From: Sipunculus nudus
Lineage: Eukaryota; Annelida; Sipuncula; Golfingiida; Sipunculidae
NCBI GenBank assembly: GCA_026874595.1
Contig: CM049315.1
Span: 67,775,916-67,839,915 of the forward strand
DNA: 64,000 nucleotides
Reading direction: 5' to 3'
The position numbers were made by a program, and so were the translations under genes. Numbering within the stretch: the stretch's first letter is position 1; each line of letters begins with the position of its first letter. Shown here one piece after another: positions 419-58,412 of the stretch. Under the pieces are notes generated by a model that was not told the origin of the DNA, did no database searches, and was given only the letters and a program-made list of their open reading frames with translations.

Positions 419-442
419 AACAGGAAACATCAATCTGACTGT

Positions 443-508
443 GAAGCTATGCTGGAAATTCTAGCATGATCAGCGGCTGCTGGTAATTCCAGCATGATCA
501 GGGGCCTG
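443..508. repeat. Short tandem pair of hairpin-forming units
   Basis: Two adjacent copies of about 32 bp, each holding an inverted repeat (GCTGGAAATTCTAGC, then GCTGGTAATTCCAGC) followed by ATGATCAG. The second arm pair, GCTGG/CCAGC, is perfect. No function can be assigned. Confidence 0.6.
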
Positions 509-680: not shown

Positions 681-689
681 ACACTACAA

Positions 690-1128
690 CTCGAGCTGCG
701 AATCCTGTCCCCGACACAGATTTCAATACATTTTGTATTACCAAATTCAATTAGATTTAGCTTCCAGCAAGCAACATAGTGAAATTTATTCTACATTTAA
801 ATGAGGTCTATTGAGAATGTAATTGATATATGCATGCATTTACTAGAAATGTTTAAAGTTACTGCATCTTCATTCCATGCCATTTCTTGATATGTTTCCC
901 ACACTAATCTCTATTAAATTACCACAATAGGTTCTGTCAGTGGCAAAATATGGTTGTGAAGTCAGGCATCAGTACACCCATGCACATCATTTGAACTACT
1001 ATGTTGCAAACAACAGCTGGTAACTCTAGATCAGAACTTTCCATGTTATATGTGTTGTTAATTTGATTATTAAAAGTTGCATTATGCATGCTCAGTCTAA
1101 AGATGGGTTTACCAAGCACGTGAAAATC
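690..1128. other. AT-rich sequence, nothing recognised
   Basis: No exon-like segment, tandem repeat or element end was seen here. It reads like intron or intergenic sequence. Confidence 0.5.
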
Positions 1129-1587
1129 TACCGTAAAAACTGGTGTATAAGTCGAAAAATTTATACCTCGAATATCGATTGAGAAAAGCTACCCCGACTT
1201 ATACACCAAAACTTGTAAATGAAGCCCTGGATCGACCAGAAACTACGACTTACCTGTGTCACGATGTCAAAAATGGTGGCCAATGGGAGATCAACAGTAT
1301 TCTGTTATTGTATTGTCTTTTTTAAATCCTATTAACAATATTATTATTAAGCATTCAAATGTTGATATAAACAACAACAAGAAACAAAAATGTTCAATCT
1401 TTTTATTTGTTCAAGTGACACTCAAGTCAAATTAAAAAATCTCACTTACCTTCACATCCTCAGACGGAATGGTCTCAACCTGTCTCCTACTTTATTTGGC
1501 TAAAAATAATTGTTACTCCATTTTTTATGCAAAAAAATCCACCACGTCTTATAAACTAGTTCGTCTTATACACCCGTTTTTATGGTA
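1129..1587. mobile_element. TA-flanked MITE with 26-bp terminal inverted repeats
   Basis: The left end (1129-1154) starts TACCGTAAAAACTGGTGTAT and the right end (1562-1587), reverse-complemented, starts TACCATAAAAACGGGTGTAT. They match at all but about four of 26 positions. TA lies at both outer edges, as expected for the TA target duplication of Tc1/mariner/pogo-type DNA transposons. The 459-bp interior has no transposase-like frame, so it is non-autonomous. The TACCGTA terminus is shared with the larger element at 50620-52152. Confidence 0.75.
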
Positions 1588-5054: not shown

Positions 5055-6850
5055 AGGAGAATAAACATGAAAGAAGAAACACCAGTCTGAAGCTTGAAAA
5101 TTCTTTATTTGTCAGGTTGTGTGGTCTGATCACATCTGATGGCAGCTAATATGCGTTCCTGTACAGGAGTAATTAAAAGGTTTGAGAATGAAAAATACTA
5201 GCAGATACCACATTATTTTAGGCAGAACACCCTAAATTGCATGTATATTTAATATGCCTGGTATGTGAATAGGTCCCTTTAATCGAAGATGTTCAAAATT
5301 GTGTTTTTGTATTACAGTTTGTAGAATTTAGGTCACAGTGAAATAATTGTAGGTTTCCAAAGAATTTTCCCTGAGACCTCCCTGGATCTTAAATTAGAAG
5401 TTTCTGGGTCAAACAATCATTTGTGAACAGCCTGACAGTTAAATGGTCAAGAGGAACAAAGGGTGATCACCATAGCTCAGATGACTTCCAGTCAGCCGAA
5501 ACTGATCGAGGAGACAAATAACCATAAGATATACCTGCAAATTTAACAAGAAATGGAGGAGTTAGTTTTTTAGTTACTGCATCATATATGATATGTTTAA
5601 TTCAAAATTGAAAAATTTCATGAATAATCTAAAAATCCTTCAAGTGTGATCAAAACTGAAGCTGGTAAATAGACTCATATGCCATTTTAATTAGAAGTGG
5701 GCATGAGTAAAGAAGTTTTAGACATGGCATTACATATATATTGTTCAGGGACAGATGGACAGACATGTGCAGAGGTGAACACTATATATCGTCCCCCCTT
5801 ATTGCGGCAGGGGACAACATATATCAATGGCTCTAAATCAATGTCTTTACCATCTAGCTGTCTTATACCTAGTTCTTCATATACAGAGAAGCCTGGTGTT
5901 TTGATAGTAATTACTGGACTTTGTGACCACAAGGTCATGAACTCATAACCTGTATGGACTGCCTTCTGTGTTAAAGTCTTTACCACAAGGGTGTACCCTC
6001 TCCACCCAGGAGTGAATAATTAGTTACTTATAACTAAAGGTGCAGACAGGCCTGGACCACTCCTTGGTAGTCTAATCCTACACATAGACAGTCTGATCCT
6101 GATCCAGTTCAGATGAAGGAGGAAAGGTCCAGTAAGTGGACTTGTCCAAGTGGTCTAGTCCATTTATTAAAAATAATGAATAATAAATCAAAATTGATTT
6201 TTTTATTCAACATTATTTTTCTACCTATATTTGTTCCAATATTTAACAAAACCAGAAATCACGTACACAGCAAACCGTGAATTAAATGTAATATTATAAT
6301 CTATACATGAATCGCAAGACCTGGGTTTGATTTTGTAATGATAATTTAATTAAAATCACATTAATCTTTGTAAATAATTAAACAGCAGTGGAATAGCTTG
6401 TGTCTCTGTGTGAGCATGGTGGTTGGAAAGTTAGAATATACACCAAACTGTGCAGGGTGGGGTGAGCTGATTAAAAGAATTTGCTGGGCAGGAATGACTG
6501 AAAATAGAAAACTTATTATCTTACGTTAACATTTATTATATAAAGTATATATAGGCCTATGTATTTAATATACAGAAATTGTTCTTGATATACTTTGCTA
6601 CACAGTGATAGAGAGGAAAAGCATCACCATTGTAAAACATTAGGGGACAAATTGATTATAAGGCTGAACATGTCACTTCAGTCACAAGTTTATAATATAA
6701 ACTGACCCTTCACTGTTACTTTGAGATTAAAAATTTAAAACAGTACACATATATAATTATACTTTTGTAGCTGTAGTTGCTTTAAATACATTTTATGTAG
6801 CAAAATATTCATTACATCTCAAGGTTTATAACAACAGCACTCAAAATGAC
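5055..6850. other. Intron-like, with a repeat-end fragment near 5340-5500
   Basis: The segment 5340-5500 carries a degraded copy of the repeat tail seen elsewhere (a CATAGCTCAGATGACTT type end, compare 36392 and 60632). The rest is AT-rich sequence in which I see no exon. Confidence 0.45.
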
Positions 6851-6976
6851 CGGTATCGCATCCCAATTTGCGACACAAAATAGACGCGGTGCGACCCGAT
6901 TTCCCTTTTGTATCGCTCTGTTGGAACCAATTAAAATGCATGTCTGGCATTTTGAGGTAAATGATTTCTTGGACCC
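6851..6976 (-). CDS. Possible internal exon, unrecognised
   Basis: A strong minus-strand acceptor (CTGCATTTCACCACGCAG|GG) opens a 126-bp segment. The frame with two leading bases reads VQEIIYLKMPDMHFNWFQ and later SILCRKLGCDT, ending one base before a GT in ATACCG|GTCATT. That donor is weak. The resulting phase matches the exon at 3576-3741. A second frame is also open through the segment, so the reading frame is not certain. The region is more CpG-rich than its flanks. Family unknown. Confidence 0.38.
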
Positions 6977-7395
6977 CTGCGTGGTGAAATGCAGCGTAAA
7001 CAGAACAGTAAATATGTGTATCAGAAATGCAAGTGCATGACTAAGACCGTGGGGTTCAGTTAATTCTTATGTGAGCGAACTTCATTGAACGATGTATATA
7101 TAACGTAATATGTGTTTGCTGCATAATTTTCCCAGTAAGCTAATCCTACTAACACCTGTGATACCTGACCCACACACCCATTGGCTGAAATTGCTTCGAC
7201 ATTATTTGACCCATGTGTTTATTGGTTGACCTCAACTTTATTTGAATACACATCATCTGACCTCTGACCCCCGCTGGTGCTACTGTCTGACCGCTGTGTT
7301 TTTTTACACTTCACTGACTAAACGGTTTGGCTTCGGTGGACTTGACCTGCTATAAAGAGTTCACCAATGTGAATCAGAAAGGAAACTATTTGTAA

Positions 7396-8287
7396 CTAGA
7401 CATTTCTTGGCACCACAGGTGCCAGAGTATCCCCAGACATAGTACAGCCCCCCCCCCCCCCCCCCCCCTTTAAGAATAGGCCCCCATTTTTAGCAGCATA
7501 TACTGACCCTTGGCAAGCAATTATTGTTTCTTCCATCTATCAATCCACAATCTTTTTGAAGATGTTGGTCCTGGGACCTTGACCTTTTTGCACATCACAA
7601 GGCTACATCAATAAAAGCAGGAATTATCATCCAAAAACTAATTTTTGGACAGATGGCTCCTGTGACCTTCACCTTTGACCTTGTGACCTCAAAATTGATA
7701 GGGGTCTTCCACTCTTGGCAGGTGAACTATATGTGCAAGATGAAAGATCTGAGATGAAATGTTTGGCTGAAAATGCATCCATAAACTTTTTAAAGATGTG
7801 TCCTGTGACCTAGACCTCATGACCCCAAAATCAATTTGGGTCTTGCTTTTCCAATGGGACATATACAAGTCAAATCTGAAATCCATACATCAATAAAAGC
7901 AAGAATTATCATCCAAAAACTAATTTTTGGACAGATGGCTCCTGTGACCTTCACCTTTGACCTTGTGACCTCAAAATTGATAGGGGTCTTCCACTCTTGG
8001 CAGGTGAACTATATGTGCAAGATGAAAGGTCTGAGATGAATTGTTTGGCTGAAAATGCATCCACAAAGTTTTTAAAGATGTGTCCTGTGACCTTGACCTT
8101 TGACCTCATGACCCCAAAATCAATTCAGGTCTTGCTTTTTCAATTTTCTTACCTATATCTATACAAATGTAAAGTTTAAAAAAGATCAGTGAAATATTTT
8201 TTGAGCTATCCCGCTCACAAGGTTTTTCTGCGGCGGCGGCGGCGGGACCGTCGTGAAACCATAGTATCCCGACTTTGTCTGGGGATA
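7396..8287 (-). mobile_element. Helitron-like (HINE-type) element, family 1, copy 1
   Basis: On the minus strand the element begins near TATCCCGACA-type sequence (8287 side, hairpin TATCC...GGATA) and ends with a subterminal inverted copy, GTCTGGGGATACTC. A perfect 7-bp hairpin (TGGCACC/GGTGCCA, 7408-7424) follows, then AAGAAATGT and CTAG, followed by T. This matches the asymmetric-TIR, hairpin and CTAG design of Helentron-related non-autonomous elements. The interior has a C tract (7448-7468), two copies of a 283-bp TGACCTTGACC-rich unit, and a (CGG)5 run near 8230. No Rep/helicase reading frame is present. Confidence 0.65.
7448..7468. repeat. Poly-C tract, 21 bp
   Basis: Uninterrupted C run at a fixed place just inside the hairpin end of the family 1 element. 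The other copies carry shorter C runs at the same place (30442-30452, 56158-56167). Confidence 0.95.
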
Positions 8288-8294
8288 AAATTAT

Positions 8295-12630: not shown

Positions 12631-15600
12631 TTTGGGTAGGGCAGGGGTAATGCTTGTTGACTCTGCCTGAATTGGGTAGGGCAGTGGTAATGCCCGTTGA
12701 CTCTGTCTGAATTGGGTGGGCCAGGGTTTTGCTTACTGACTGCCTGAATTAGGTAGGGCAGGGTTATGCTTGTTGACTCTGCCAGAATTGAGTAGGGCTG
12801 GGGTTATGCTTGTTGACTCTACCTGAATTGGGTAGGGCAGGGGTTATGCTTACGGACTGCCTGAATTGGGTGGGGCAGAGGTTATGCTTGTCGACTCTAG
12901 AAGAAGTGGGTAGGGCAGGAGTTATGTTGTTGACTGCCAGAATTGAGTAGGGCAGGGGTTATGCTTATTGACTCTGCCAGAATTGAGTAGGGCAGGGGTT
13001 ATGCTTATTGACTCTGCCAGAATTGGGTAGGGCAGGGGTTATGCTTATTGACTCTGCCTGAATGGGGATAGGGCAGAGGTAATGCTTGTTGACTCTGCCT
13101 GAATTGAGTAGGGCAGGGGTAATGCTTGTTGACTGTGCCTGAATTGGGTAGGGCAGAGGTAATGCTTGTTGACTCTGCCTGAATTGGGTAGGGCAGGGGT
13201 TATGCTTATCGACTGCCTGAATTGGGTAGGGCAGGGGTAATGCTTGTTGACTCAGGCAGAATTGAGTAGGGAAGGGGTTATGCTTATTGACTCTGCCTGA
13301 ATTAGGTAGGGCAGGGGTTATGCTTGTTGACTCTGCCTGAATTGGGTATGTCAGGGGTTATTCTTGTGGATGCTGCCTGAATTGGGTAGGGCAGGGGTAA
13401 TGCTTGTTGACACTGCCTGAATTGGGTGGGGCAGAGGTTATGCTTGTTGACTGCCTAAATTAGGTAGGGCAGGGGTTATGCTTGTTGACTCTGTCTGAAT
13501 TGGGTGGGCCAGGGTTTTGCTTGTTGACTGCCTAAATTAGGTAGGGCAGGGGTTATGCTTGTTGACTCTGTCTGAATTGGGTATAGGCCAGGGTTTTGCT
13601 TATTGACTGCCTGAATTAGGTAGGGCAGGGGTTATGCTTGTTGACTCTGCCTGAATTGGGTAGGGCAGGGGTTATGCTTACAGACTGCCTGAATTGGGTG
13701 GGGCAGAGGTTATGCATGTCGACTCTAGAAGAAGTGGGTAGGGCAGGGGTTATGCTGTTGACTCTGCCAGAATTGAGTAGGGCAGGGGTTATGCTTATTG
13801 ACTCTGCCAGAATTGGGTAGGGCAGGGGTTATGCTTACTGACTGCCTGAATTGGGTACAGCAGGGGTAATGCTTGTAGACTACCTGAATTTGGTAGGGCA
13901 GAGGTTATGCTTGTTGACTCTGCCAGAATTGAGTAGGTCAGGGGTTATGCTTATTGACTGCCTGAATTGGGTATGGCAGGGGTTATGCTTGTAGACTCTG
14001 CCTGAATTGGGTAGGACAGAGGTTATGCTTGTTGACTCTGTCTGAATTGGGTAGAGCAGGGGTTATCCTTATTGACTCTGCCAGAATTGGGTAGGGCAGA
14101 GGTTATGCTTGTTGACTCTGCCTGAATTGGGTAGAGCAGGGGTTATGCTTATTGACTGCCTGAATTAGGTAGGGCAGGGGTTATGCTTGTTGACTCTGCC
14201 AGAATTGAGTAGGTCAGGGGTTATGCTTGTTGACTCTGTTTGAATTGGGTAGAGCAGGGGTTATGCTTATTGACTGCCTGAATTGGGTATGGCAGGGGTT
14301 ATGCTTGTAGACTCTGCCTGAATTGGGTAGGGCAGAGGTTATGCTTGTTGACTCTGTCTGAATTGGGTAGAGCAGGGGTTATGCTTATTGACTCTGCCAG
14401 AATTGGGTAGGGCGGGGTTATGCTTATTGACTCTGCCTGAACTGGGTAGGGTAGGGGTTATTCTTGTGGACTCTGCCAGAATTGGGTAGGGCAGGGGTTA
14501 TGCTTATTGACTCTGCCTGAATTTGGTAGGGTAGGGGTTATTCTAGTGGACGCTGCCTGAATCGGGTAGGGCAGGGGTTATGCTTATTGACACTGCCTGA
14601 ATTTGATAGGGCAGGGGTGATGCTTGTTGATTCTGCCTGAATTGGATAGGGCAGGGGTTATGCTTGTTGACACTGGCTGAATAGGGTAGGGCAGGGGTTA
14701 TGCTTGTTGACTGCCTGAATTGGAAAGGGCAGGGGTGATGCTTGTTGACTCTGCCTGAATTGGGTAGGGCAGGGGTTATGCTTGTTGACTCTGCCTGAAT
14801 TGGGTAAAGCAGGGGTTATGCTTATTGACTGCCTGAATTGGGTATGGCAGGGGTTATGCTTGTAGACTCTGCCTGAATTGGGTAGGGCAGAGGTATGCTT
14901 GTTGACTCTGTCTGAATTGGGTAGAGCAGGGGTTATGCTTATTGACTCTGCCAGAATTGGGTAGGGCGGGGTTATGCTTATTGATTCTGCCTGAACTGGG
15001 TAGGGTAGGGGTTATTCTTGTGGACTCTGCCAGAATTGGGTAGGGCAGGGGTTATGCTTATTGACTCTGCCTGAATTTGGTAGGGTAGGGGTTATTCTAG
15101 TGGACGCTGCCTGAATCGGGTAGGGCAGGGGTAATGCTTGTTGACACTGCCTGAATTTGATAGGGCAGGGGTGATGCTTGTTGATTCTGCCTGAATTGGA
15201 TAGGGCAGGGGTTATGCTTGTTGACACTGGCTGAATAGGGTAGGGCAGGGGTTATGCTTGTTGACTGCCTGAATTGGAAAGGGCAGGGGTGATGCTTGTT
15301 GACTCTGCCTGAATTGGGTAGGGCAGGGGTTATGCTTGTTGACTGCCTGAATTGGGTAGGGCCGGGGTTATGCTTGTTGACACTGCCTGAATAGGGTAGG
15401 GCAGGGATCATGCTTGTAGACTCTGCCTGAATTGGGTAGGGCAGAGGTATGCTTGTTGACTCTGCCAGAATTGAGTAGGTCAGGGGTTATGCTTATTGAC
15501 TGCCTGAATTGGGTATGGCAGGGGTTATGCTTGTAGACTCTGCCTGAATTGGGTAGGACAGAGGTTATGCTTGTTGACTCTGTCTGAATTGGGTAGAGCA

Positions 15601-16970
15601 GGGGTTATGCTTATTGACTCTGCCAGAATTGGGTAGGGCAGAGGTTATGCTTGTTGACTCTGCCTGAATTGGGTAGAGCAGGGGTTATGCTTATTGACTG
15701 CCTGAATTAGGTAGGGCAGGGGTTATGCTTGTTGACTCTGCCAGAATTGAGTAGGTCAGGGGTTATGCTTGTTGACTCTGTTTGAATTGGGTAGAGCAGG
15801 GGTTATGCTTATTGACTGCCTGAATTGGGTATGGCAGGGGTTATGCTTGTAGACTCTGCCTGAATTGGGTAGGGCAGAGGTTATGCTTGTTGACTCTGTC
15901 TGAATTGGGTAGAGCAGGGGTTATGCTTATTGACTCTGCCAGAATTGGGTAGGGCGGGGTTATGCTTATTGACTCTGCCTGAACTGGGTAGGGTAGGGGT
16001 TATTCTTGTGGACTCTGCCAGAATTGGGTAGGGCAGGGGTTATGCTTATTGACTCTGCCTGAATTTGGTAGGGTAGGGGTTATTCTAGTGGACGCTGCCT
16101 GAATTGGGTAGGGCAGGGGTTATGCTTATTGACACTGCCTGAATTTGATAGGGCAGGGGTGATGCTTGTTGATTCTGCCTGAATTGGATAGGGCAGGGGT
16201 TATGCTTGTTGACACTGGCTGAATAGGGTAGGGCAGGGGTTATGCTTGTTGACTGCCTGAATTGGAAAGGGCAGGGGTGATGCTTGTTGACTCTGCCTGA
16301 ATTGGGTAGGGCAGGGGTTATGCTTGTTGACTCTGCCTGAATTGGGTAGAGCAGGGGTTATGCTTATTGACTGCCTGAATTGGGTATGGCAGGGGTTATG
16401 CTTGTAGACTCTGCCTGAATTGGGTAGGGCAGAGGTATGCTTGTTGACTCTGTCTGAATTGGGTAGAGCAGGGGTTATGCTTATTGACTCTGCCAGAATT
16501 GGGTAGGGCGGGGTTATGCTTATTGATTCTGCCTGAACTGGGTAGGGTAGGGGTTATTCTTGTGGACTCTGCCAGAATTGGGTAGGGCAGGGGTTATGCT
16601 TATTGACTCTGCCTGAATTTGGTAGGGTAGGGGTTATTCTAGTGGACGCTGCCTGAATCGGGTAGGGCAGGGGTAATGCTTGTTGACACTGCCTGAATTT
16701 GATAGGGCAGGGGTGATGCTTGTTGATTCTGCCTGAATTGGATAGGGCAGGGGTTATGCTTGTTGACACTGGCTGAATAGGGTAGGGCAGGGGTTATGCT
16801 TGTTGACTGCCTGAATTGGAAAGGGCAGGGGTGATGCTTGTTGACTCTGCCTGAATTGGGTAGGGCAGGGGTTATGCTTGTTGACTCTGCCTGAATTGGG
16901 TAAAGCAGGGGTTATGCTTGTTGACACTGCCTGAATAGGGTAGGGCAGGGATCATGCTTGTTGACTCTGC
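12631..16970. repeat. 4.3-kb minisatellite, 40-bp unit with higher-order structure
   Basis: About 110 tandem copies of a 40-bp unit of the form GACTCTGCCTGAATTGGGTA plus GGGCAGGGGTTATGCTTGTT, with 37-bp variants lacking TCT. From about 13.9 kb rightwards the array has higher-order repeats. Blocks recur at exactly 1542 bp (13921 with 15463; 14350 with 15892) and, within each, at 554 bp (14350 with 14904; 15892 with 16446). The array ends abruptly at GACTCTGCCC near 16970. Long peptide frames in it are artefacts of the repeat. Confidence 0.97.
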
Positions 16971-17354
16971 CCAAAGGGCATATAATCAAATGTTTATCAA
17001 GTTTGCCTGCCCAAGTATAAACTCAAAAACCTGATCATGGATCTCAATGAAAGTTTAGATAAAGATGGATAATTTAAAGATGCGGAAGCGGATAATTTTG
17101 TTTGTACATCTCTATTTGATTAAAGGAACTGTAACTAGTGGTAACACCTTGATGAAGATTTCACATGATTGTTATATAATGATGTGATATATATTTTACA
17201 GGTCATGTTATTTTAATATTATAAGAATCTTAGGAAGCAAAGCTCCCTAATAAATGAGTCATCAATTTGCAGTAAAAAATGTTACAAAATTACAGATAAC
17301 AATCCTTAGTTATTTATTTTACCACTATATCAATAATAAACTTGTTCCTTTTCA
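16971..17354. other. AT-rich flank of the minisatellite
   Basis: Nothing recognised apart from the pyrimidine tract that precedes the plus-strand exon candidate at 17356. Confidence 0.4.
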
Positions 17355-29410: not shown

Positions 29411-30420
29411 CTGCAAGATGACTTGTTATCAGCTCCAATTTACCTTTTCATCCCAGAACTATAATTGACAATCAATTTATTAAAGGAGACCATGCATGCA
29501 GTACAGCAGACCCAGTGACATTTACGCTGAACTGATCAATACAGATTTTTTGGGTGCATTACAGTTCACTGAACTGTTATTCAAGCAGCTAAACGAATTC
29601 TTTGGCATTCTTCATTTGAACTAAAATGTTCAGCCCTGTTGCAAATGTGGATATGAACATGAACAGCAACAGAACATAAGAAAAAGTTTCAAGGAACAGA
29701 AAATTCTCCCAACCATATTTATTAAAAAAAATTCATGTAACTCTGAGGATAAACTACAACTGGTTAACCAGTACTGCATAATTTACTTATCACTGATCAA
29801 CGAGTATGCCTAGAACACTTTTAAAACCTCCTGGTTAAGATTATCCTGAAAATTATTTGCTCATTTCTTAAACAGATGCACTGACCAATACATATAACAC
29901 ATGTAGTATTTTTATTTTTTAAATATTAGTATCATGGTCTATACCTGTTATCACTGATAAGGTAATGAATTAATTTATGACCGTGAAAATTAATTCCTGA
30001 AGCTTCCTCACTTTCATGATTTTTACATGTGTGATGCTGGGAAACACCATCCAGAAGTAAGAGCCATTGTTTGTGATATATCACAGGTATGTGATATGGC
30101 CTTGTTAAATTCCACAAAGTATGTTTATTGAGTAAATGGAAATGTACCTTGGACTTTTAGCTATTTCAGAAAAAGCATTAATGAGCAGTTTTAATGATTC
30201 ACAGTCCAGGACCTAAATTAAAGGATCAGCAACATTTTTATAAAACCAAGTTAAATGATATGATCTTTTTACAAATTTCACAATTTGAATATCCTGCTGG
30301 CTAAAGAAGGATGATGATGAAAGAAATTCCCTATAATAAAACTATAAGCTGATTTAAAAATAATTCAAAGCAAATCAAGGAATAAATAGACATGTCATGG
30401 CATCATAGATGTCATACTCA
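29411..30420. other. Intron-like, nothing recognised
   Basis: AT-rich sequence between exon candidates; no arrays or element ends. Confidence 0.4.
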
Positions 30421-32283
30421 TAGTATCCCCAGATAATTAATCCCCCCCCCCCTTCAAAAATAAGCCACCACCTAGGTGTGCATGACCTTAAAAACCAAGG
30501 TCACTAGTCTCTTTCAACAACTTATCACCTGACTTCTTACATTTTGATTTTCAGATGGATACATCTATCAAATTAAGAAAGAATATTTTTCACAAAATAT
30601 GGGAATATTCAATATTCAATATATGTATTCAATAATAAGCAGAAGACAAAGCTATCTAAGATCTTCGATCAATTTGATTTTTGGACCAATCCTTATTGAG
30701 AATATATTTAAGATTTTTTGAATATTCACCACATATGGAAATGTTCAAGTTGAGTCCACTCTCATAGTAAAGGTCATGACCCAAAATTTCAATATACATC
30801 ATCCCATAACCCATATTAATGAATATGCATAATATGAAAGTAATATGTCCATTAGTTTTTGACTTATTATGCTCACAGTACTGTCAAGTAGCAATTATGG
30901 CCAGGGAATTAAAAGGCTCAAAAACAACTAGAATATCAGCAGAAGCTGACAAAAGCCCTCAGCCAAAAGAACAGTGTTTAGAGGTGGTAACAGTATCAAG
31001 TACTAAATATCTGTTCTCACATGGATGTATATCTGTACATGTCTCAGTTATAAACTTAAAATGGAGAGGTATGTACCATGAATCATAACAATCCACCTAA
31101 TGCTTCCTGAAAAATAAGCTTCTAAATTTAATTCTATTATAAGCTCTGTGACCTTGAAAAGTAGGTCAAGGTCACCCATCTTCGAACTTGACTGAGATTT
31201 TGTTGATATACATCTTCACCAAAGGAATAAAATTCCTATTGTGAATCCTTTTAGAGATATACCGCTCACAAGGCCAAAGTTGAAAAATCCAAGAAAAATT
31301 CATTTAAAATCAGAAATTGTAGGTGGGGCCCCCAAACTTGTGCAGCAGTTACAGACCATCAGTCCCTATGATCATAGTAAGTATTGTGAAAATCCACCCA
31401 ATGGTTCCTGAGAAATAAGCTTCTAAATGTTTTTTTCTATAATCAGCTCGAAAACGTAGAAAAATAGGTCAAGGTCACCCATCTTCGAACTTGACCGAGA
31501 TTTTGTCAATATACATCTTCACTGAAAAAATAAAATTCCTACGGTGAATCCTTTTAGAGATATCCCACTCACAAGCCCAAAGGTGAAAAATCCGATAAAA
31601 ATTCATTAAAAATCAGAAATTGTAGGTGGCGCCACCAAACTTGTGTAGCAGGTACAGACTATCAGTCCCAATAATCATAGAAAGTTTTGTGAAAATCCAC
31701 CAAATGGTTCCTGAGTAATAAGCATCTAAGTGTTTTTCTATAATCAGCTCTAAAATGTAGAAAGTCAAGGTCACCAATCTTCGAACTTGACCGAGATTTT
31801 GTCAATATGCATCTTTACAAAGGAAATGAAATTCTGACGGTGAACCCTTTTCAAGATATCCCGCTCACAAGGTTAAAGTTAACGGACGCCGGACGGACGG
31901 ACGAACGGACAGCTTGGGTGACGACAATAGCCCATCAGCATAAGGGCTGAGGGCTAATAAAAGGATTATAGGTGGCACCACCAGCTGGGTACACAACAAA
32001 ACTATCCAAGATCTTTGGTCAACATGTTAAGATCAATCCATGCAAGATTTCTTGAGACATTTAGAAATTGTGTGATTTTCTAAATAAATGGACCTGGTCA
32101 AGGTCACTCTCCTAGTAAAGGTAATGACCCGATTTTAAATAGGATTTGTCCTCTCACCCATATCTATGAACATATCAAGTTTGGTAAAGATCTGTAAAAT
32201 ATTATCACACAAACAAGATTTATTTGCGGTGGCTGGACCGTCATGAAACCATGGTATCCCCTGACTTTGTCTGGGGATACAAT
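30421..32283 (-). mobile_element. Helitron-like element, family 1, copy 2 (hairpin end missing)
   Basis: The right boundary has the family hairpin GTATCCCC...GGGGATAC followed by AATAA. The left side begins at TAGTATCCCCAGATAATTAA with a C11 tract but lacks the TGGCACC hairpin and CTAG, so the 3' terminus (minus orientation) is truncated. The interior has three tandem units of about 300 bp (31090-31870). Each carries AAGGTCAAGGTCACCCATCT-type sequence and a GGTGGCGCCACC palindrome or its variant, followed by a GGACGGACGGACGAACGGAC tail. Confidence 0.6.
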
Positions 32284-32584: not shown

Positions 32585-34147
32585 CAGCCAAATAAGGTAA
32601 TGCAAGTCTGGACTCAGCTTGATAACCAAATGAGGTAGTGCCCATCGAGGCTCAGCTTAACATCCAAATAAGATAGTGCCAATCTAGGCTCAGCTTAACA
32701 ACCAAATAAGGTAATGCCGTTCTAGGCTCAGCTTAACAACCAAATAAGGTAATGCGGTTCTAGGCTCTGCTTAACAACCAAATAAGGCAGTGCTCATCTA
32801 GGCTTAGCTTAACAACCAAATAAGGTAGTGCCCATCGAGGCTCAGCTTAACATCCAAATAAGATAGTGCCAATCTAGGCTTAGCTTAACAACCAAATAAG
32901 GTAATGCCCATCTTAGCTCAGCTTAATAACCAAACAAGGTAGTGCCGTTCTAGGCTCTGCTTAACAACCAAATAAGGCAGTGCTCATCTAGGCTTAGCTT
33001 AACAACCAAATAAGGTAGTGCCTATCAAGGCTCAGCTTAACATCCAAATAAGATAGTGCCAATCTAGGCTTAGCTTAACAACCAAATAAGGTAATGCCCA
33101 TCTTAGCTCAGCTTAATAACCAAACAAGGTAGTGCCGTTCTAGGCTCTGCTTAACAACCAAATAAGGCAGTGGTCATCTAGGCTTAGCTTAACAACCAAA
33201 TAAGGAAGTGCCTATCAAGGCTCAGCTTAACATCCAAATAAGATAGTGCCAATCTAGGCTCAGCTTAACAACCAAATAAGGTAGTGCCCATCTTAGCTCA
33301 GCTTAATAACCAAACAAGGTAGTGCCGTTCTAGGCTCTGCTTAACAACCAAATAAGGCAGTGCTCATCCAGGCTTAGCTTAACAACCAAATAAGCAAGTG
33401 CCCATCGAGGCTCAGCTTAACAAACAAATAATGTAGTGCCAATCTAGGATCATTTTAACAACCAAATAAGATTGTGCCAATCCAGGCTCAGCTTAACACC
33501 CAAATAAGGTGGTGCCCATCTAGGTTGAGCTTAACAACCAAATAAGGCAGTGCAAATCTAGGCTAAGCTTAACAACCAAATATGGTAGTGCCCATTTAAG
33601 CTCAGCTTAATAACCAAATAAGGAAGTGCCAATCTAGGCTTAGCTTAACAACCGAATGAGGTCGTGCCCATCTGACTCAGCTTAAAACGCAAATAAGGTA
33701 GTGCCAATCTAGATTCAGCTTAATAACCAAATAAGGCAGTGCCAATCTAGGCTCAACTTAACAACCAAATAAGATAGTTCTAATCTAGGCTCAGCTTAAC
33801 AACCAAATAAGGTAGTGCCAATCTAGGCTTAGCTTATCAACCAAATAAGGTAATGCCAATCTGGGCTCAGCTTAACAACCAAATAAGGTAATGACAATCT
33901 AGGCTTAGCTTATCAACCAAATAAGGTAAGGCCAATCTGGGCTCAGCTTAACAACCAAATAAGGTAATGACAATCTAGGCTTAGCTTTTCAACCAAATAA
34001 GGTAAGGCCAATCTTGGCTCAGCTTAACAACCAAATTAGGTAATGACAATCTTGGCTCGGCTTAACAACCAAATAAGGTAATGACAATCTGGGCTCAGCT
34101 TAACAACCAAATAAGGTAGTGCCCATCTTAGCTCAGCATAACAACCA
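32585..34147. repeat. Minisatellite, 38-bp unit with exact 190-bp higher-order period
   Basis: About 41 copies of a 38-bp unit of the form CAACCAAATAAGGTAGTGCC plus CATCTAGGCTCAGCTTAA. The variant TAGGCTCTGC recurs at 32761, 32951, 33141 and 33331, a constant spacing of 190 bp (five units), so this stretch grew by five-unit steps. The right part is less ordered. Confidence 0.96.
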
Positions 34148-35228: not shown

Positions 35229-35402
35229 TTATAGGTGGTGCCAACTGTGCAGACAGGAAAGGTCAGAGGTCAACTCAAAATGAGGGCACAGCAGTTCAAT
35301 AAAATTCAATCTAATGGTTATGGAGGAGTTCTCCGGAAATCTATGTGGCGGCAGCAAGCTGAAAACAAAGTATCCGCAAAACTCTTTTTTGGTGGATACA
35401 AT
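35229..35402 (-). mobile_element. Helitron-like family 2, truncated copy
   Basis: On the minus strand it starts TTGTATCCACCAAAAAAGAG, then TTTGCGGATACTTTGTTTTC, matching the start of the family 2 copy at 44877. It ends inside a GGTGGTGCCAAC motif near 35232 and lacks the 3' hairpin. Confidence 0.55.
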
Positions 35403-37090: not shown

Positions 37091-37093
37091 TAA

Positions 37094-40000
37094 CTAGACA
37101 TTTCTTGGCACCGCAGGTGCCAGAGTATCCCCAGACATAGTAGGCCCCCCTCCTACAAGAACAGACCCCCATTTTTAGCAGCATATACTGACACTTGGCA
37201 TATTTATTGTTTATTCCATCTAACGATTCCACAATCTTGTTGAAGATGTTGGTCCTGTGACCTTGATCTTTTAAAAGATGTGTCCTGTGACCTTGACCTT
37301 TGATCTCATAACCCCAAAATCAATTTGGGTCTTGCTTTTCCAATGGGACATATGCAAGTCAAGTTTGAAATCTATACATCAATAAAGCAGGAATTATCAT
37401 CCAGAAACTTATTTTTGGACAGATGGCTCCTGTGACCTTCACCTTTGACCTTGTGACCTCAAAATTGATAGTGTTCTTCCTCTCTTGGCAGGAGAACTAT
37501 ATGTGCAAGATGAAAGATATGAGATGAAATGTTTGGCTGAAAATGCATCCACATCTTTTTAAAGATGTGTCCTGTGACCTTGACCTTTGACCTCATGACC
37601 CCAAAATCAATTTTGGTCTTACTTTTCCAATGGGACATATACAAGTCAAGTTTGAAATCCATACATCAATAAAAGCAGGAATTATCATCCAGAAACTAAT
37701 TTTTGGACATATGGCTCCTGTGACCTTCATCTTTGACCTTGTGACCTCAAAATTGATAGGGGTCTTCCACTCTTGGCAGGTGAACTATATGTGCAAGAGG
37801 AAATATCTGAGATGAATTTTTTGGCTGAAAATGCATCCACAATCTTTTTAAAGAGGTTTCCTGTGACCTTGACCTTTGACCTCATGACCCCAAAATCAAT
37901 TTGGGTCTTGCTTTTCTAATGGGTCAATAACAAAGCCAAGTTTGAAATCCATACATCAGTAAAAGATGGAATTAAAATCCAGAAACTAATTTTTGGACAG
38001 ATGGCTCCTGTGACCTTCACCTTTGACCTTGTGACCTCAAAACTGATAGGGTTCTTCCTCTCTTGGCAGGTGAACTATATGTGCAAGATGAAAGACCTGA
38101 GATGAAATGTTTGGCTGAAAATGCATCCACATCTTTTTAAAGATGTGACCTTGACCTTTGACCTCATGACCCCAAAATCAATTTGGGTCTTGCTTTTCTA
38201 ATGGGTCAATAACAAAGCCAAGTTTGAAATCCATACATCAGTAAAAGATGGAATTAAAATCCAGAAACTAATTTTTGGACAGATGGCTCCTGTGACCTTC
38301 ACCTTTGACCTTGTGACCTCAAAACTGATAGGGTTCTTCCTCTCTTGGCAGGTGAACTATATGTGCAAGATGAAAGACCTGAGATGAAATGTTTGGCTGA
38401 AAATGCATCCACATCTTTTTAAAGATGTGACCTTGACCTTTGACCTCATGACCCCAAAATCAATTTGGGTCTTGCTTTTCAAATGGGACATATATAAGTC
38501 AAGTTTGAAATCCATACATCAATAAAAGCAGGAATTATCATCCAGAAACTAATTTTTGGACATATGGCTCCTGTGACCTTCACCTTTGACCTTGTGACCT
38601 CAAAATTGATAGGGGTCTTCCACTCTTGGCAGGTGAACTATATGTGCAAGATGAAAGATCTGAGATGAATTGTTTGGCTGAAAATGCATCCACAATCTTT
38701 TTATAGAGGTTTCCTGTGACCTTGACCTTTGACCTTATGACCCCAAATTCAATTCCGGTCTTGCTTTTCCAATGGGTCAAATACAAGTCAAGTTTGAAAT
38801 CCAAACATCAATAAAAGAAGGAATTATCATCCAGAAACTAATTTTTGGACAGATGGCTCCTGTGACCTTCACCTTTGACCTTGTGACTTCAAAATTGATA
38901 GGGTTCTTCCTCTCTTGGCAGGTGAACTAAATGTGCAAGATGAAAGATCTGAGATGAAATGTTTGGCTGAAAATGCATCCACATCTTTTTAAAGATGTGA
39001 CCTTGACCTTTGACCTCATGACCCCAAAATCAATTTGGGTCTTGCTTTTCCAATGGGACATATATAAGTCAAGTTTGAAATCCATACATCAATAAAAGCA
39101 GGAATTATCATCCAGAAACTAATTTTTGGACATATGGCTCCTGTGACCTTCACCTTTGACCTTGTGACCTCAAAATTGATAGGGGTCTTCCACTCTTGGC
39201 AGGTGAACTATATGTGCAAGATGAAAGATCTGAGATGAATTGTTTGGCTGAAAATGCATCCACAATCTTTTTATAGAGGTTTCCTGTGACCTTGACCTTT
39301 GACCTCATGACCCCAAAATCAATTTGGGTCTTGCTTTTCCAATGGGACATATATAAGTCAAGTTTGAAATCCATACATCAATAAAAGCAGGAATTATCAT
39401 CCAGAAACTAATTTTTGGACAGATAGCTCCTGTGGCCTTGACCTTTGACCTTGTGACCCCAAAATTTATATGGATCATCCATTATTGGCAAGTGAGCTAT
39501 ATATTCAAGATGGAAGACCTGGGATGAAAGTTTGGCTTAAAATGCATCCACAGTATCTTTTAAAATGCCAGTCCAGTGACCTTGACCTTTGACCTCATGA
39601 CCCTAGAACCTATAGGGTTCTTACTTTAGTGGTTGGCCATACATAAGTCATGTTTGAAATCCATATGGCTATCAACACTGGAGATATCATAAGAGGTGTG
39701 TGATTTTCACCATATATGGCAATATTCAAGGTCAAGGCCACTATCATAGGAAAGGTCATGACCCCAATTTAAATAAGCATCATCCCATAACCCATACCTA
39801 TGTATATGCATAATATAAAAGAAATCTGTCCATTAGTTTTTGACTTATAATGCTCACAGTGCTGTAAGGTGGCAATTTAGGGGGTATTAAACGGCACGAA
39901 AACAAGTAAAGAATAATAGGTGGCGCCACCAGTTTCTGGAACATGACAACCCTATCCATGATCTTCCATCAACTTGATTTTGGGATAAATCCATGCAAAA

Positions 40001-40194
40001 TTTCTTGAGATATTAAAGAATTTGTGTGATTTTCCCCGAAATTGGACCTATTCAAGGTCAAGGACACTCTCCTAGTAAAGGTCATGACCTCATTTTAAAT
40101 AGGCGTCGTCCTCTTACCCATATCTATACATATACCAAGTTTGGTAAAGTTCCGTGAAATATTTTTTGGGTTATCGCGCCAACAAGATTCATAT

Positions 40195-40234
<40 letters not shown>

Positions 40235-40283
40235 GACCGGTATGAAAACATAGTATCCCCCGACTTTGTCTGGGGATACAATA
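37094..40283 (-). mobile_element. Helitron-like element, family 1, copy 3 (expanded core)
   Basis: The most complete copy. The left edge has CTAG (37094-37097), then hairpin TGGCACC-GCA-GGTGCCA (37106-37122), then GTATCCCCAGACA. The right edge has GTATCCCC...GGGGATAC near 40272 followed by AATAATAA. In minus orientation this gives a 5' inverted repeat, a subterminal 3' copy, a hairpin and CTAG before TT. The core holds about eight tandem units of 281-290 bp with a partial 570-bp dimer period (38580 against 39150). A 3' part resembles copies 2 and 4, and a (CGG)13 run lies at 40195-40234. Confidence 0.72.
40195..40234. repeat. (CGG)n microsatellite
   Basis: About 13 CGG units just inside the right end of the family 1 element. 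The other copies have CGG-type tracts at the same place (8230-8244, 58322-58363), so the tract is part of the element. Confidence 0.95.
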
Positions 40284-40997
40284 ATAAACGACCATTAATA
40301 TTCACAGTGGTTTCATTTTTGCCATGATTTCCTCAATGCAAATATCATGAACATGAAACATTATACATATTTGTTAGTAATTGATACCTGTGCATAGATT
40401 CTCAAGGTTTTTGTATTTTATTTCCAGGTGTTTTTCATTTTTGCTCATCATGCATTTAAATGGAAAAAACATGTTTAACCTTGTGTATAAATGCTTTAAC
40501 TGGAACTGAAGCAGGTTTAACTAATGTGACACATAACAAATTCCTATAGAGATCCATGTATTTTCATCAGTCTATGAAAAAAACTCAGCCATGCAGCGGC
40601 TAGATGTATATTTATCTTAATTGAATAGTCAATATACATTTTTGTTACATTAATCATGAAGGCAGAAGCAGCCTTCAGGTTTTAAATGAGCAGAAAAGCA
40701 TCCTACATATAAATTGTAAAAGTACATTTTTATGAGATGCCCTAATCTATACACGTATCATGTACAGATGTCTGGACTCTGACAGGCACCATTGGAATAG
40801 TAATGAGCACACAACTTATTCAAACATGAGATGGACCTTCTTGTATCACACAAAATCTACTTGATTTTAGAAAGACAAATTCTTGTTCTTCAGTGATCTC
40901 AGCTGATTATAAACGAGATAAATTACTGTTGCCATCAGCCCCCGTCAGCCATCTTTTCTCTTTAACAAAGAGAAGATTTTGCAGGAATGAACCTTAC
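40284..40997. other. Intron-like, nothing confident
   Basis: Several minus acceptor-like sites (for example TTTTTTTCATAG near 40580) but none opens an exon whose phase fits the neighbours. Confidence 0.35.
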
Positions 40998-44769: not shown

Positions 44770-44876
44770 TTGTCTGTCTGTACATCCTCTAACAGGCCAT
44801 CTGGTAGATAAGTTTAGTACCAAAAGAAAGATAGGCCCTGATGCAAGAAATTAATTAGTATATTACTAATTAATTG

Positions 44877-46617
44877 TATCCGCCAAAACAGAGTTTTGCG
44901 GATACTATGTTTTCAGCTGCACGCCGCCGCCGCCGCCGCCGCGTAGGTTTCCGGAGAACTCCTCCGTAACCGCTGGGCTGAATTTTACGAAACCCGGGAT
45001 TATGTTCGGGTCACATGTGAACTGCTGCGCCCCAATTTTGTTTTGACCTCTGACCTTTCCTCTGTGCTCTGCGTCCGTTTGTGCGTCTGTTTCCACACAT
45101 AAACCCACATATCTCGGGAACCGTTTGACGGATCAGAAAAATTTTTTTGCACAAATGTAGCCCTTGGAGAGCTTTATAACATACACAAAAAATGGTGGCG
45201 CCACCTGCAACCATGTTTGCACAGTGTCCATCTGTTCGTCTGCCTTAGGTTAAAATCACTCATATCTCTGCAGTGACTTGACTAATTCACCTGAAATTTG
45301 GCATGCGTATACATTCTGGATAGCTTTTCTGAGTTTGTGACAGGTGGCGCCACCTACATTCACGTTTACGCTGCAGACATCCAAGCTCATATCTCGGGAA
45401 CCGTTTGACCGATCAGGAAAATTTTTTTGCACAAATGTAGCCCTTGGAGAGCTTTATAACATACACAAAAATGGTGGCGCCACCTGCAACCATGTTTGCA
45501 CAGTGTCCATCTGTTCGTCTGCCTTGGGTTAAAATCACTCATATCTCTGCAGTGACTTGACTAATTCACCTGAAATTTGGCATGCGTATACATCCTGGAT
45601 AGCTTATCTGATTTTGTGACAGGTGGCACCACCTACATTCACGTTTACGCTGCAGACATCCAAGCTCATATCTCGGGAACCGTTTGACCTATCAGAAAAT
45701 TTTTTTTGCACAAATGTAGCCCTTGGAGAGCTTTATAACATACACAAAAAATGGTGGCGCAACCTGCAACCGTGTTTGCACAGTGTCCATCTGTTTGTCT
45801 GCCTTGGGTTAAAATCACTCATATCTCTGCAGTGACTTGACTAATTCACCTGAAATTCGGCATGGGTATACATCCTGGATAGCTTTTCTGATTTTATGAC
45901 AGGTGGCGCCACCTACATTCACGTTTACGCTGCAGACATCCAAGCTCATATCTCGGGAACCGTTTGACCGATTAGGAAAATTTTTTTGCACAAATGTAGC
46001 CCTTGGAGAGCTTTATAACATACGCAAAACTGGTGGCGCCACCTGCAGCCATTTTTGCACAGCTCTATCTGTTTGTCTGCCATGGGATAAAATCACTCAT
46101 ATCTCGGCAGTGGTTTGACATATCTGGCTAAAATTTTGCAGGTTTATACATCCCTGACAGCTCTCTTGATTTTATGACAGGTGGAGCCAACTGCATTCTA
46201 GTTTATGCAGCAGACATCCAAGCTCATATCTTGGGAACCGTTTGACCGATTGGGCCAAAGTTTTGCATGTGTATAGTTCTCACATAGCTCTTTATCATAC
46301 GCAAAACTGGTGCTGTCACCTGCAACCATTTTTGCTCAGCGTCCATCTGATTGTCTGCCACAGGCTAAAATCACTCATATACATGTAGTGGTTTGACTTA
46401 TCTGCCTTAAATTTTGCATATGTATACAACTGGGACGGCTTTCTGGATTTTGTGGTAGGGGGGGCAACCTTCATACACAATTTGGCTGCAGACATCTATG
46501 CTAATATGCAACACTTCACTCTATTTCCCCTTGCCACTTAATCCATGCCTCACTTCACCCGTTCCACTCTGATTTAGGCGGATACACGTAGTCGCTTGTA
46601 GACTACCCGTATTCTAG
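44877..46617 (+). mobile_element. Helitron-like family 2, plus-oriented copy
   Basis: The 5' end is TATCCGCC (44877-44884), followed by AGAGTTTTGCGGATACTATG and a (CCG)n run (44922-44942). Near the 3' end are GGCGGATA (46577-46584), the hairpin GTAGTC/GACTAC (46588-46606), then CCGTATT and CTAG (46614-46617), followed by TT. The core has tandem units of 280 bp (45338, 45618, 45898, with a more diverged fourth and a partial first), each with two GGTGGCGCCACC-type palindromes. No protein-coding capacity is evident. Confidence 0.68.
44922..44942. repeat. (CCG)n microsatellite
   Basis: About seven CCG units just inside the 5' end of the family 2 element. In family 1 the CGG tract also lies near the 5' end when read in element orientation. 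Confidence 0.93.
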
Positions 46618-56105: not shown

Positions 56106-58412
56106 CTAGATATTTCTTGGCACCGCAGGTGCCATAGTATCGCCAGACAATTAATACCCCCCCCCCCTTTAAGAATAGGCCCCACATCTTCAGCAACAAT
56201 TAATATCAGACCACACTCATAGAAAAGGTCATTCTCATAGAAAAGGTCATGATCCAAATTTCAATATACATCATCCCCTAACCCATGTCTATGTATATGC
56301 AAGAAATCTGTCCATTAGTTTTTGACTTATAATGCTCACAGTACTGTTAAGTGGCAATGATGGGGTATTAAACGGCACGAAAACAAGTAAAAGAATAACA
56401 GGTGGCACCACCTGTTTCCAGTACATGACAACACTATCCAAGATCTTCGTTCAAGTTGATTTTTGGACCAATCAATGCATCCCTTATTGAGAAATTAATG
56501 ATTTTGTGTGATTTTCACCATATATGGCAATATTCAAGGTCAAGGCCACTCATTGGAAAGGTCATGACCCCTATTCAAATAAACATTATCCTATAACCTA
56601 TATCCATGTATATGCATATTATGAAAGAAATTTGTCCATTAGTTTTTGACTTAAAATGCTCACAGTAATGATAAATGGCAATGATGGGGTATTAAACGGC
56701 ACAAAACAAGTAAAAGAATAACAGGTGGTGCCACCTGTTTCCGGTACATGACAATACTTTCCAAGAACATTGAACATGTTGATTTTTGGACCAATGCATG
56801 CATGCCTTATTGAGATATTAATGATTTTGTGTCATTTTCACCATATATGGCAATATTCAAGGTCAAGGCCACTCTAATAGGAAAGGTCATGACTCCAATT
56901 TATATATACATTATCCCATAACCCATGTCTATGTATATGCATAATATGAAAGAAATCTGTCCATTAGTTTTTGACTTATAATGCTCACAGGTTATAAATG
57001 TACTGTTAAGTGGCAATGATGGGGTATTAAACGGCACGAAAACAAGTAAAAGAATAACAGGTGGCCCACCTGTTTCCGGCACATGACATTACTATCCAAG
57101 ATCTTCGGTCAAGTTGATTTTTGGACCAATGCATGCATCCCTTATTGAGAAATTAATGATTTTGTGTGATTTTCACCATATATGGCAATATTCAAGGTCA
57201 AGGCCACTCATTGGAAAGGTCATGACCCCTATTCAAATAAACATTATCCTATAACCCATATCCATGTATATGCATAATATGAAAGAAATTTGTCCATTAG
57301 TTTTTGACTTATAATGCTCACAGTACTGATAAATGGCAATGATGGGGTATTAAACGGCACAAAACAAGTGAAAGAATAACAGGTGGTGCCACCTGTTTCC
57401 GGTACATGACAATACTTTCCAAGAACATTGAACATGTTGATTTTTGGACCAATGCATGCATCCCTTATTGAGATATTAATGATTTTGTGTAATTTTTACC
57501 ATATATGGCAATATTCAAGGTCAAGGCCACTCTAATAGGAAAGGTCATGACCCCAATTAATATATACATCATCCCATAACCCATGTCTATGTATATGCAT
57601 AATATGAAAGAAATCTGTCCATTAGTTTTTGACTTATAATGCTCACAGGTTATAAATGTACTGTTAAGTGGCAATGATGGGGTATTAAACGGCACAAAAA
57701 CAAGTAAAAGAATAACAGGTGGCGCCATCTGTTTCCGGTACATGACATGACTATCCAAGATCTACCGTCAAGTTGATTTTTGGACCAATCCATGCATCCC
57801 TTATTGAGAAATTAATGATTTTGTGTGATTTTTACCATATATGGCAATATTCAAGGTCAAGGCCACTCTCATGGAAAAAGGTCATGACCCCAATTTAAAT
57901 AAACATCATCCCATAACCCATATCTATGTATTTGCATAATATGAAAGAAATCTGTCCATTAGTTTTTTTACTTATAATGCTCACAGTACTGTCAAGTAGC
58001 AATTTTGGGGGTATTAAACGGCACGAAAACAAGGAAAGAATAATAGGTGGCGCCACCAGTTTCTGGAACATGACAACCCTATCCATGATCTTCGATCAAC
58101 TTGATTTGGGGATCAATCCATGCAAGATTTCTTGAGATATTTAAGAATTTGTGTGATTTTCCCCAAAATTGAACCTATTCAAGGTCAAGGTCACTCTCCT
58201 AGTTGAGGTCATGACCTCATTTTAAATAGGCGTCGTCCTCTCACCCATATCTATACATATACCAAGTTTGGTAAAGATCCGTGAAATATTTTTTGAGTTA
58301 TTGTGTCCAAAAGAAATCTCTGCGGTGGCGGCGGCGGTGGCGGCGGCGGTGGCGGCGGCGGTGCGACCGTGGCTAAACCATAGTATCTCCAGACTATGTC
58401 TGGCGATACAAT
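56106..58412 (-). mobile_element. Helitron-like element, family 1, copy 4
   Basis: Left edge: CTAG (56106-56109), then hairpin TGGCACC-GCA-GGTGCCA (56118-56134), then GTATCGCCAGACA and a C tract. Right edge: TATCTCCAGACTATGTCTGG then CGATACAATAATA. The core has six units alternating near 322 and 336 bp (56397, 56720, 57056, 57377, 57714, 58033), so the real period is a dimer of about 658 bp. Each unit starts at an AGGTGGC(A/G)CCACC motif. A CGG/TGG tract lies at 58322-58363. Confidence 0.7.
58322..58363. repeat. (CGG/TGG)n microsatellite
   Basis: Interrupted CGG tract at the position conserved among family 1 copies. Confidence 0.9.

Follow-up and report, generated by a model that had tools for sequence, protein, structure and literature searches.

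Satellite-carrying HINE-like elements of Sipunculus nudus favour a five-base target that resembles their own 3' tail

In the oyster Crassostrea gigas, the Helentron-associated interspersed elements (HINEs) named Cg_HINE are abundant and insert into T-rich targets, preferably TT, and the accessible text of their description identifies no autonomous partner (PMC7492417). Relatives that end in CTAG and carry subterminal inverted repeats (subTIRs) are reported, in the accessible parts of the respective papers, among the Helitrons of the same oyster (PMC7992393) and as Hel-2 of Lepidoptera (PMC4344730). Since HINEs with satellite cores and CTAG-ended relatives have both been published, the kind of element considered here is already known. 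We describe it in a 64,000-nt stretch of the Sipunculus nudus genome (the window), together with copies from the same assembly (1.43 Gb, 153 contigs). The four family-1 elements of the window belong, as non-coding copies, to a very abundant, rolling-circle-like mobile DNA that carries satellites: their 13-bp subTIR, GTATCCCCAGACA, has 8,566 exact matches in the genome (4,251 + 4,315), as compared with 22 (9 + 13) for a reversed control. Their preference for a five-letter target resembling their own tail suggests how the enzyme that mobilises them, presumably a Rep, may cut.

Family-1 elements and their described relatives

The four elements share one orientation, as originally predicted, and all lie on the window's minus strand:

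37094..40279, minus strand: E37, family-1 HINE-like element of ~3.19 kb, recognised by motif matches and 94.0% identical to genome copy L021 over 3,210 bp
37092..40284, minus strand: borders of E37, with CTAG at 37094-37097, TT after CTAG at 37092-37093 and the 5' flank TTATT at 40280-40284
40253..40279, minus strand: 5' subTIR of E37, GTATCCCCAGACA, with the inverted copy GGGGGATAC, predicted to form a hairpin (DNA fold -9.7 kcal/mol, z -5.4)
40195..40234, minus strand: (GCG)n trinucleotide tract of E37, close to its 5' end
37266..39603, minus strand: tandem core of E37, 8.2 copies of a 289-bp unit made of two ~145-bp halves
37125..37137, minus strand: 3' subTIR of E37, TGTCTGGGGATAC in element orientation
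37106..37122, minus strand: 3' hairpin of E37, TGGCACC/GGTGCCA with a loop of 3
7396..8288, minus strand: E7, family-1 element of 0.89 kb, with its hairpin at 7408-7424 and CTAG at 7396-7399
30386..32280, minus strand: E30, family-1 element of 1.9 kb with a 303-bp core unit and a decayed 3' end (CTAT, imperfect hairpin)
56106..58409, minus strand: E56, family-1 element of 2.3 kb with subTIRs GTATCGCC at both ends and a 323-bp core unit

In element orientation, E37 runs from its flank TTATT through GTATCCCCAGACAAAGTCGGGGGATACTATG, (CGC)n, the tandem core, a G-rich tract, TGTCTGGGGATAC and the hairpin TGGCACCTGCGGTGCCA to AGAAATGTCTAG and TT. The original prediction gave all four elements the same pair of motifs at one end; the exact pair GTATCCCC...GGGGATAC is present in two of them (at 30 kb and 37 kb), whereas E7 has a shortened form and E56 carries GTATCTCC...GGCGATAC. 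E56 also has GTATCGCCAGACA at both ends, a matched change. The 3' hairpin and CTAG followed by TT are intact in three of the four, as had been noticed, and E30, which had been started at 30421, has a decayed 3' module (CTAT for CTAG, imperfect hairpin) and thus ends at ~30386. GTATCCCC occurs seven times in the window against 1.12 expected (0/100 shuffles reach 7), and the hairpin TGGCACC-N-GGTGCCA three times against 0.01 expected; at 3 mismatches, the 13-mer subTIR shows no clear excess there (20 vs 13.8 expected; 7/100 shuffles). No open reading frame (ORF) of at least 150 aa (ATG/GTG/TTG to stop) was found in the window.

Genome copies were sampled as 40 stretches (L009-L048), all of them on contig C1 at one contig end, the first places among the matches listed, besides eight further loci (L001-L008). 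Both ends could be read in 32 copies (paired rows), of which L016 and L017 come from one cluster. The predicted HINE architecture is strongly supported, by the subTIRs, the 5' inverted repeat, the short-repeat tract in most copies, the tandem core, the 3' palindrome, the lack of a long ORF and the T-rich target. Its order, from a hairpin-forming 5' subTIR through a usually GC-rich trinucleotide tract, the tandem core, the 3' subTIR and the 3' hairpin to the CTAG end, holds for 4/4 window copies, one of them decayed; among the paired rows, a trinucleotide run of at least 9 nt lies near the 5' end in 27/32, and a poly-G of at least 6 precedes the 3' subTIR in 29/32. The 5' subTIR, whose 13 bp fall within the 12-15 bp of HINEs, is set 0-2 nt inside the 5' end, according to where the cut is placed. 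The 3' subTIR has its inner edge 31 bp (33 with TT) and its outer edge 44-46 bp from the 3' end, near the published mite range of 38-60 bp, and the 7-bp stem of the 3' palindrome ends 12 bp before the end, within the 8-35 bp of HINEs. This palindrome is lost in L013-L015 and decayed in E30, where the hairpin fold is gone (z -0.1). At the 5' end, the predicted hairpin folds well beyond shuffles in 3/3 sequences (z -5.4, -7.0, -3.5).

The ends stay constant around a core that differs, its unit measuring 289 bp in copies like E37, 323 bp in those like E56 and 303 bp in E30; copies with the 289-bp core are ~88-97% identical (best alignments, L013-L016 cluster excluded). Two elements with a GTATCGCC 5' end, E56 and one in L046, could be read at both ends, and in each the change recurs in the 3' subTIR (2/2). 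In L046 (~300-3250), the GTATCGCC-ended copy (761-1970) appears nested, in opposite orientation, in a second family-1 copy, and an ORF with a KN/TALE-type homeodomain (6185-7477, minus strand) lies ~3 kb from the family-1 elements.

Compared by description of their layout, these elements resemble Cg_HINE in the 5' subTIR with an inverted repeat, the short-repeat tract, the array of satellite-like monomers, the 3' subTIR and the 3' palindrome, and also in the T-rich target without target-site duplication (TSD), the occurrence, within one group, of related ends around different cores, and an autonomous partner identified in neither (PMC7492417). Unlike Cg_HINE, for which TT is preferred and the string CTAG is absent from the main text of that report, they have a TNRTT target and a poly-G before the 3' subTIR. 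The pearl, DTC84 and MgE elements of bivalves, likewise compared by their accessible descriptions, also have short satellite-like core arrays between conserved ends (PMC7492417, PMC5139131). Drosophila DINE-1 and the mite HINE share 12-15 bp subTIRs, an inverted repeat at the 5' end of DINE-1, a 3' stem-loop and a T-rich target with no confirmed TSD, but the number of terminal T is variable there, as compared with TT in nearly all copies here, and CTAG is not among the HINE features given in the accessible text (PMC4067079).

Among the C. gigas Helitrons, 257/751 have subTIRs, some of these with a 5' inverted repeat, and are discussed as possible Helitron-Helentron intermediates; they share the CTAG 3' end, the 3' hairpin and insertion between A and T, but start with TC where ours start with TT or G, and the accessible account gives a microsatellite for just one of them, against the trinucleotide run common here (27/32) (PMC7992393). 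Lepidopteran Hel-2 has a CTAG end, a 5' inverted repeat, subterminal inverted repeats, a microsatellite after the 5' repeat and a 3' hairpin; it differs by its 5' TC and 250-bp consensus, and the accessible text mentions no satellite core (PMC4344730). In the accessible portions of two reports, CTAG is the end of Helitrons or proto-Helentrons and not a Helentron hallmark (PMC4067079, PMC7992393). The HINE-like class of the S. nudus elements is well supported, a grade that does not extend to membership among Helentrons proper, which calls for a closely similar autonomous partner encoding Rep, a PIF1-like helicase and an AP endonuclease. The interpretation in the original prediction is therefore supported in part; a mollusc-like genome was suggested only by the likeness to published bivalve HINEs.

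Borders, target motif and empty sites

Junctions were compiled from the sampled copies as 41 deduplicated 5' junctions and 34 3' junctions. Five rows of L014-L017 were left out and the satellite cluster was counted once, as L013; the 3' set is also without L001, L008 and L016 (duplicates of L009, L010 and the satellite cluster). The 3' junctions were chosen by a fuzzy pattern containing CTAG, so that the CTAG frequency in those 34 is not evidence, and an earlier tally of 3' flanks (TT 29/31, TC 2/31), whose pattern required T followed by T or C, was not used.

Information in the 5' flank is at most 0.51 bit at positions -20 to -6 and 0.72-1.95 bits at -5 to -1 (n = 41), and in the 3' flank it is 1.74-1.94 bits at +1 and +2 and at most 0.52 bit from +3 on (n = 34). 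The 5' target bases are T at -5 (41), T, A or C at -4 (21, 18 and 2), A or G at -3 (38 and 3), T at -2 (40) and T at -1 (39). TNATT occurs at 36/41 5' junctions, as compared with 185/11,370 positions of the same flanks (1.6%), and, given NNATT, T at -5 is present in 36/36 junctions against 185/450 in the control (Fisher p = 9e-14). Two 5' flanks of this first sample combine G at -3 with an unbroken TT, and both read TAGTT, the same as the 3' tail of the element; the 5' flanks of L029, L030 and L038 are TTGTT, TCATT and TTATT. After CTAG, the first base is T in 34/34 and the second in 33/34 3' junctions. The TT is thus intact at 38/41 5' and 33/34 3' junctions, which fits the TT insertion without TSD of HINEs. 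Helentrons proper have a variable number of terminal T; here TT stands at both borders in nearly all copies, but longer T runs, not assignable to host or element, occur at some 3' flanks.

As the TNATT motif had been derived from the first junction sample, it was tested on held-out copies, taken from subTIR places not previously used (27 stretches of 133 bp, with 16 5' ends and 10 3' ends). One held-out end, L051, was excluded (17 to 16), since the script had classed as a 5' end what is a 3' end, without hairpin, from the satellite cluster; another, L054, lies inside the already sampled L019, though uncounted before. TNATT was found at 14/16 of these 5' ends and T at -5 in 15/16, the remaining two ends reading TAACT and AAGTT, while the 3' ends read TAGTT in 10/10 and CTAG (CTAGTT) in 9/10. 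With this TNRTT preference, the target exceeds in specificity the TT that has been reported for Helentrons.

Among the sampled insertions, several are in minisatellites (L003, L022, L039 and the L013 cluster). Uninterrupted host minisatellite units around three independent insertions supplied the empty sites: in the 55-bp host unit at C1:1407323-1422469, ATATAATTAGTATT became ATATAATT-GTATCC...CTAG-TTAGTATT; in the L003 minisatellite, TTATTAGTTCACTAC became TTATTAGTT-GTATCC...CTAG-TTCACTAC; and in the L022 minisatellite, GTTTATTACTACTG became GTTTATT-GTATCC...CTAG-TTACTACTG. The fourth minisatellite insertion, L039, was not used, its 3' flank aligning uncleanly. In each case the host holds one TNRTT, and the filled site shows a net gain of one TT with no other duplication. 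Neither of the outcomes that the original prediction named as contrary to it appeared: the three recovered sites show no fixed-length duplication beyond the ambiguous TT, the ends do not vary freely but stop at CTAG and TT in the junction alignment, and TT does stand at both borders, although as part of a 5-bp TNRTT rather than as the whole target.

The five copies at C1:1407323-1422469 occupy the same unit position of the host satellite (55-bp unit), and four agree with one another at 97.3-99.6%, so that these copies (L013-L017) were amplified with the satellite; because L013-L015 have lost their 3' hairpin, they were probably copied without transposing. In L029 (3' end at 398), two elements meet head to tail, a single TT separating CTTG from GTATCC.

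The window also holds a second HINE-like family:

44876..46617, plus strand: family-2 element, with 5' GTATCCGCCAAAACA hairpin after TAATT, 280-bp core array, 3' subTIR-like GGCGGATAC, hairpin GTAGTC/GACTAC, and CTAG then TT
35370..35401, minus strand: second family-2 5' end, after TAATT

Its subTIRs and hairpin differ from those of family 1, and the TNATT target is common to both. Of the family-2 5' ends recognised, in part by a stem-pairing scan, 5/6 follow TNATT and the sixth TTTTT; the window yielded one readable family-2 3' end, TTCTAG then TT. In L022, a family-2 element (5' GTATCCGCCAAAACA) is inserted at the same position of another minisatellite unit.

Proposed cleavage at the two borders

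That the elements are non-autonomous, of HINE type and moved by a rolling circle is, in our view, quite probable. Reps of the HUH type generally read a few bases on the 5' side of the nick. As the target TNRTT and the tail TAGTT are alike, we infer one Rep recognition site for both borders, and propose a cycle whose Rep chemistry, cut frame, circle and strand would be as follows. A trans-acting HUH Rep/helicase would mobilise family-1 elements, its Rep recognising T-N-A/G-T-T in single-stranded DNA and nicking 3' of the motif at the 5' border, right before the hairpin GTATCCCCAGACAAAGTC.GGGGATAC. The helicase would then peel the element strand off as far as the 3' subTIR and hairpin, and a second Rep nick would fall after the element tail CTAGTT, which ends in five bases (TAGTT) that match this motif as well. 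What is released, as a strand or as a circle with the junction CTAGTT/GTATCC, would be joined into a host TNRTT, and the resulting copy, TNRTT-GTATCC...CTAGTT-N, would have one TT above the empty site. That one Rep cleavage motif serves both borders, with GTATCC...CTAGTT as the element, is a tentative proposal which we would stop short of calling probable; beyond the resemblance itself, the TAGTT flanks and the single-TT junction of L029 lend it modest support.

A number of observations weigh against this account. The TT could equally be the 5' end of the element, with TTGTATCC...CTAG inserted between the A and the TT, or a 2-bp duplication, and the copies that deviate are few (5' TT missing in 3/41 and 3' TT in 1/34; in the held-out set, 1/16 and 0/10). 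The head-to-tail copy of L029 can equally be a plain insertion at the TT of another element. The target has exceptions, namely TTATC, TTGCT and TAATA in the first sample, TAACT and AAGTT in the held-out set and TTTTT in family 2; the held-out AAGTT, with G at -3 and TT but no T at -5, means that a G at -3 is not always part of TAGTT. The 3' hairpin folds just modestly above shuffles (z -2.7, -2.8), and the match between 5' and 3' subTIRs is not general, since the 5' changes of E7, L041 and the second L046 copy are absent from their 3' ends. Finally, no autonomous partner was seen in two small Pfam scans: the 10 ORFs scanned, out of 11 of at least 80 aa in the longest sampled copy, L028 (5.8 kb), matched no Pfam family, and 10 chosen ORFs from other loci included no Rep, two of them matching reverse transcriptase, one a TALE-type homeodomain, four giving a weak or low-complexity match and three no match.

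The alternative that survives best keeps the same rolling-circle elements and moves the cut: TTGTATCC...CTAG would insert between the A and the first T of TNATT, CTAG being the true 3' end and the TT after it host DNA. The A at -3 in 38/41 junctions agrees with this shifted cut, as does L027, which has 5' TT with 3' TC, expected if the element bears a 5' TT, and insertion between A and T with CTAG ends is published, as far as the accessible text goes (PMC4067079, PMC7992393). By itself, however, it leaves unexplained the T at -5 and the fact that the tail TAGTT is an accepted target, and the 5' TT deviates at least as often as the 3' TT (3/41 vs 1/34; 1/16 vs 0/10), although these numbers are small; the three empty sites do not discriminate between the frames. 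We judge this alternative to come near to being probable without quite getting there.

Elements cut in this way would parallel proto-Helentron-Pi (5' TT, 3' CTAG, insertion between A and T) or, 5' TC apart, a canonical Helitron. The accessible description of proto-Helentron-Pi from Phytophthora agrees with our elements in the 5' TT, the 3' CTAG, the insertion between A and T and the lack of a TSD, and differs in that the element is autonomous, ~14 kb long and described as structurally Helitron-like (PMC4067079). As for canonical Helitrons (Helitron1), their 5' TC is not found here, the 5' end being TTG or G, while their 3' CTRR with insertion between A and T is (CTAG in 9/10 held-out ends, A at -3 in 38/41).

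A terminal inverted repeat (TIR) transposon of the DDE type, or a miniature inverted-repeat transposable element, with a 2-bp TT TSD would account for TT on both sides of each copy and a single TT in the empty sites, and the subterminal inverted repeats can be read as TIRs. Yet the repeats are asymmetric, one sitting right at the 5' terminus and the other set back 31 bp from the 3' terminus with a separate hairpin outside it, and the two sides mismatch in L027 (TT/TC), L028 (TC/TT) and L035 (CT/TT). We know of no DDE family with a TT TSD, and rate this explanation as very improbable. Least credible of all, to the point of being nearly negligible, is a spread of satellite amplification units by recombination rather than transposition: tandem cores do make up much of the element length and the five copies at C1:1407323-1422469 did move with the 55-bp host satellite, but the subTIR copies are dispersed and number in the thousands, their borders are fixed, their flanks are unrelated and the empty sites are clean, all of which speaks against it.

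Tandem cores and a possible shared cleavage code

The two ~145-bp halves that form the 289-bp dimer have consensuses, built from 39 and 51 of 132 half-units, which are 48/58 identical around AAGACCC...GGTCA..AGGTCAAAGGT.AAGGTCACAGGA..CATCT; elsewhere they show 46 identities over 82 aligned positions, a score reached by 6/200 shuffles. The core units at 37266-39603, 56225-58254 and 31090-31871 are dense in TCAAGGTCA and in AGGTCA, the half-site of nuclear receptors. AGGTCA occurs six times in the 289-bp unit (0.33 in shuffles), twice in each of the 323-bp and 303-bp units (0.09 and 0.17 in shuffles) and 54 times in E37 as a whole; it is present in at least one copy in 5/15 tandem-unit clusters and absent from 10/15. 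This density may reflect shared descent of the cores rather than selection. Family-1 elements would seed very many predicted nuclear-receptor-like sites genome-wide; a literature search on the core motifs, and on Helitron satellites with nuclear-receptor sites, returned nothing relevant.

In the window, TCAAGGTCA occurs 30 times against 0.85 expected and AGGTCANAGGTCA 14 times against 0.02, some of them outside family 1. The 12-bp palindrome GGTGGCGCCACC is shared by core units and elements that are otherwise unlike (window positions 31625, 39919, 45194-46043 and 56401-58057) and occurs in 30/48 loci, with 19 window matches at up to one mismatch against 0.02 expected; at up to two mismatches it lies 100-450 bp from the 5' end in 26/32 paired copies. 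Long minisatellites of the window are found at 12632-16971 (40-bp unit), 32588-34147 (38-bp) and 1-417 (41-bp).

Outside animals, the target has a counterpart in the Fusarium Helitron2 elements FoHeli1/2, whose accessible description gives asymmetric inverted repeats, hairpins at both ends and TNAT before the insertion point, all of which are found here; their 3' end, ATTTT, is not, CTAGTT standing in its place, and they are coding elements of ~5-6 kb (PMC5148889). For the TNAT site of FoHeli1/2 and Chaetomium Helitrons, the next base is given as T in the legend and A in the text, so that the fifth base is T here and T or A there (PMC5148889). The accessible papers otherwise give TT or insertion between A and T as the target. 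Among the matches listed in a search that covered few subscription papers, no statement of a TNAT(T) target for animal HINEs was found, and for Helitron with TNAT just PMC5148889 was clearly on topic.

This common site preference suggests, by analogy, a link between the S. nudus HINEs and fungal Helitron2. T-N-R-T-T may be the single-strand cleavage code of a Rep common to presumed animal HINEs and fungal Helitron2, legible both in the host target and in the tail TAGTT, an idea that we hold to be less likely than not. The five-base target, repeated on held-out copies and like the element tail, is a concrete cleavage-site hypothesis that can be used in the hunt for the autonomous partner. If the code is real, the long-known CTRR/CTAG ends and the A-T or TT targets would be two views of one recognition site, and the 3' end of each inserted copy would be a new target, from which rows of satellite-bearing elements joined head to tail could arise.

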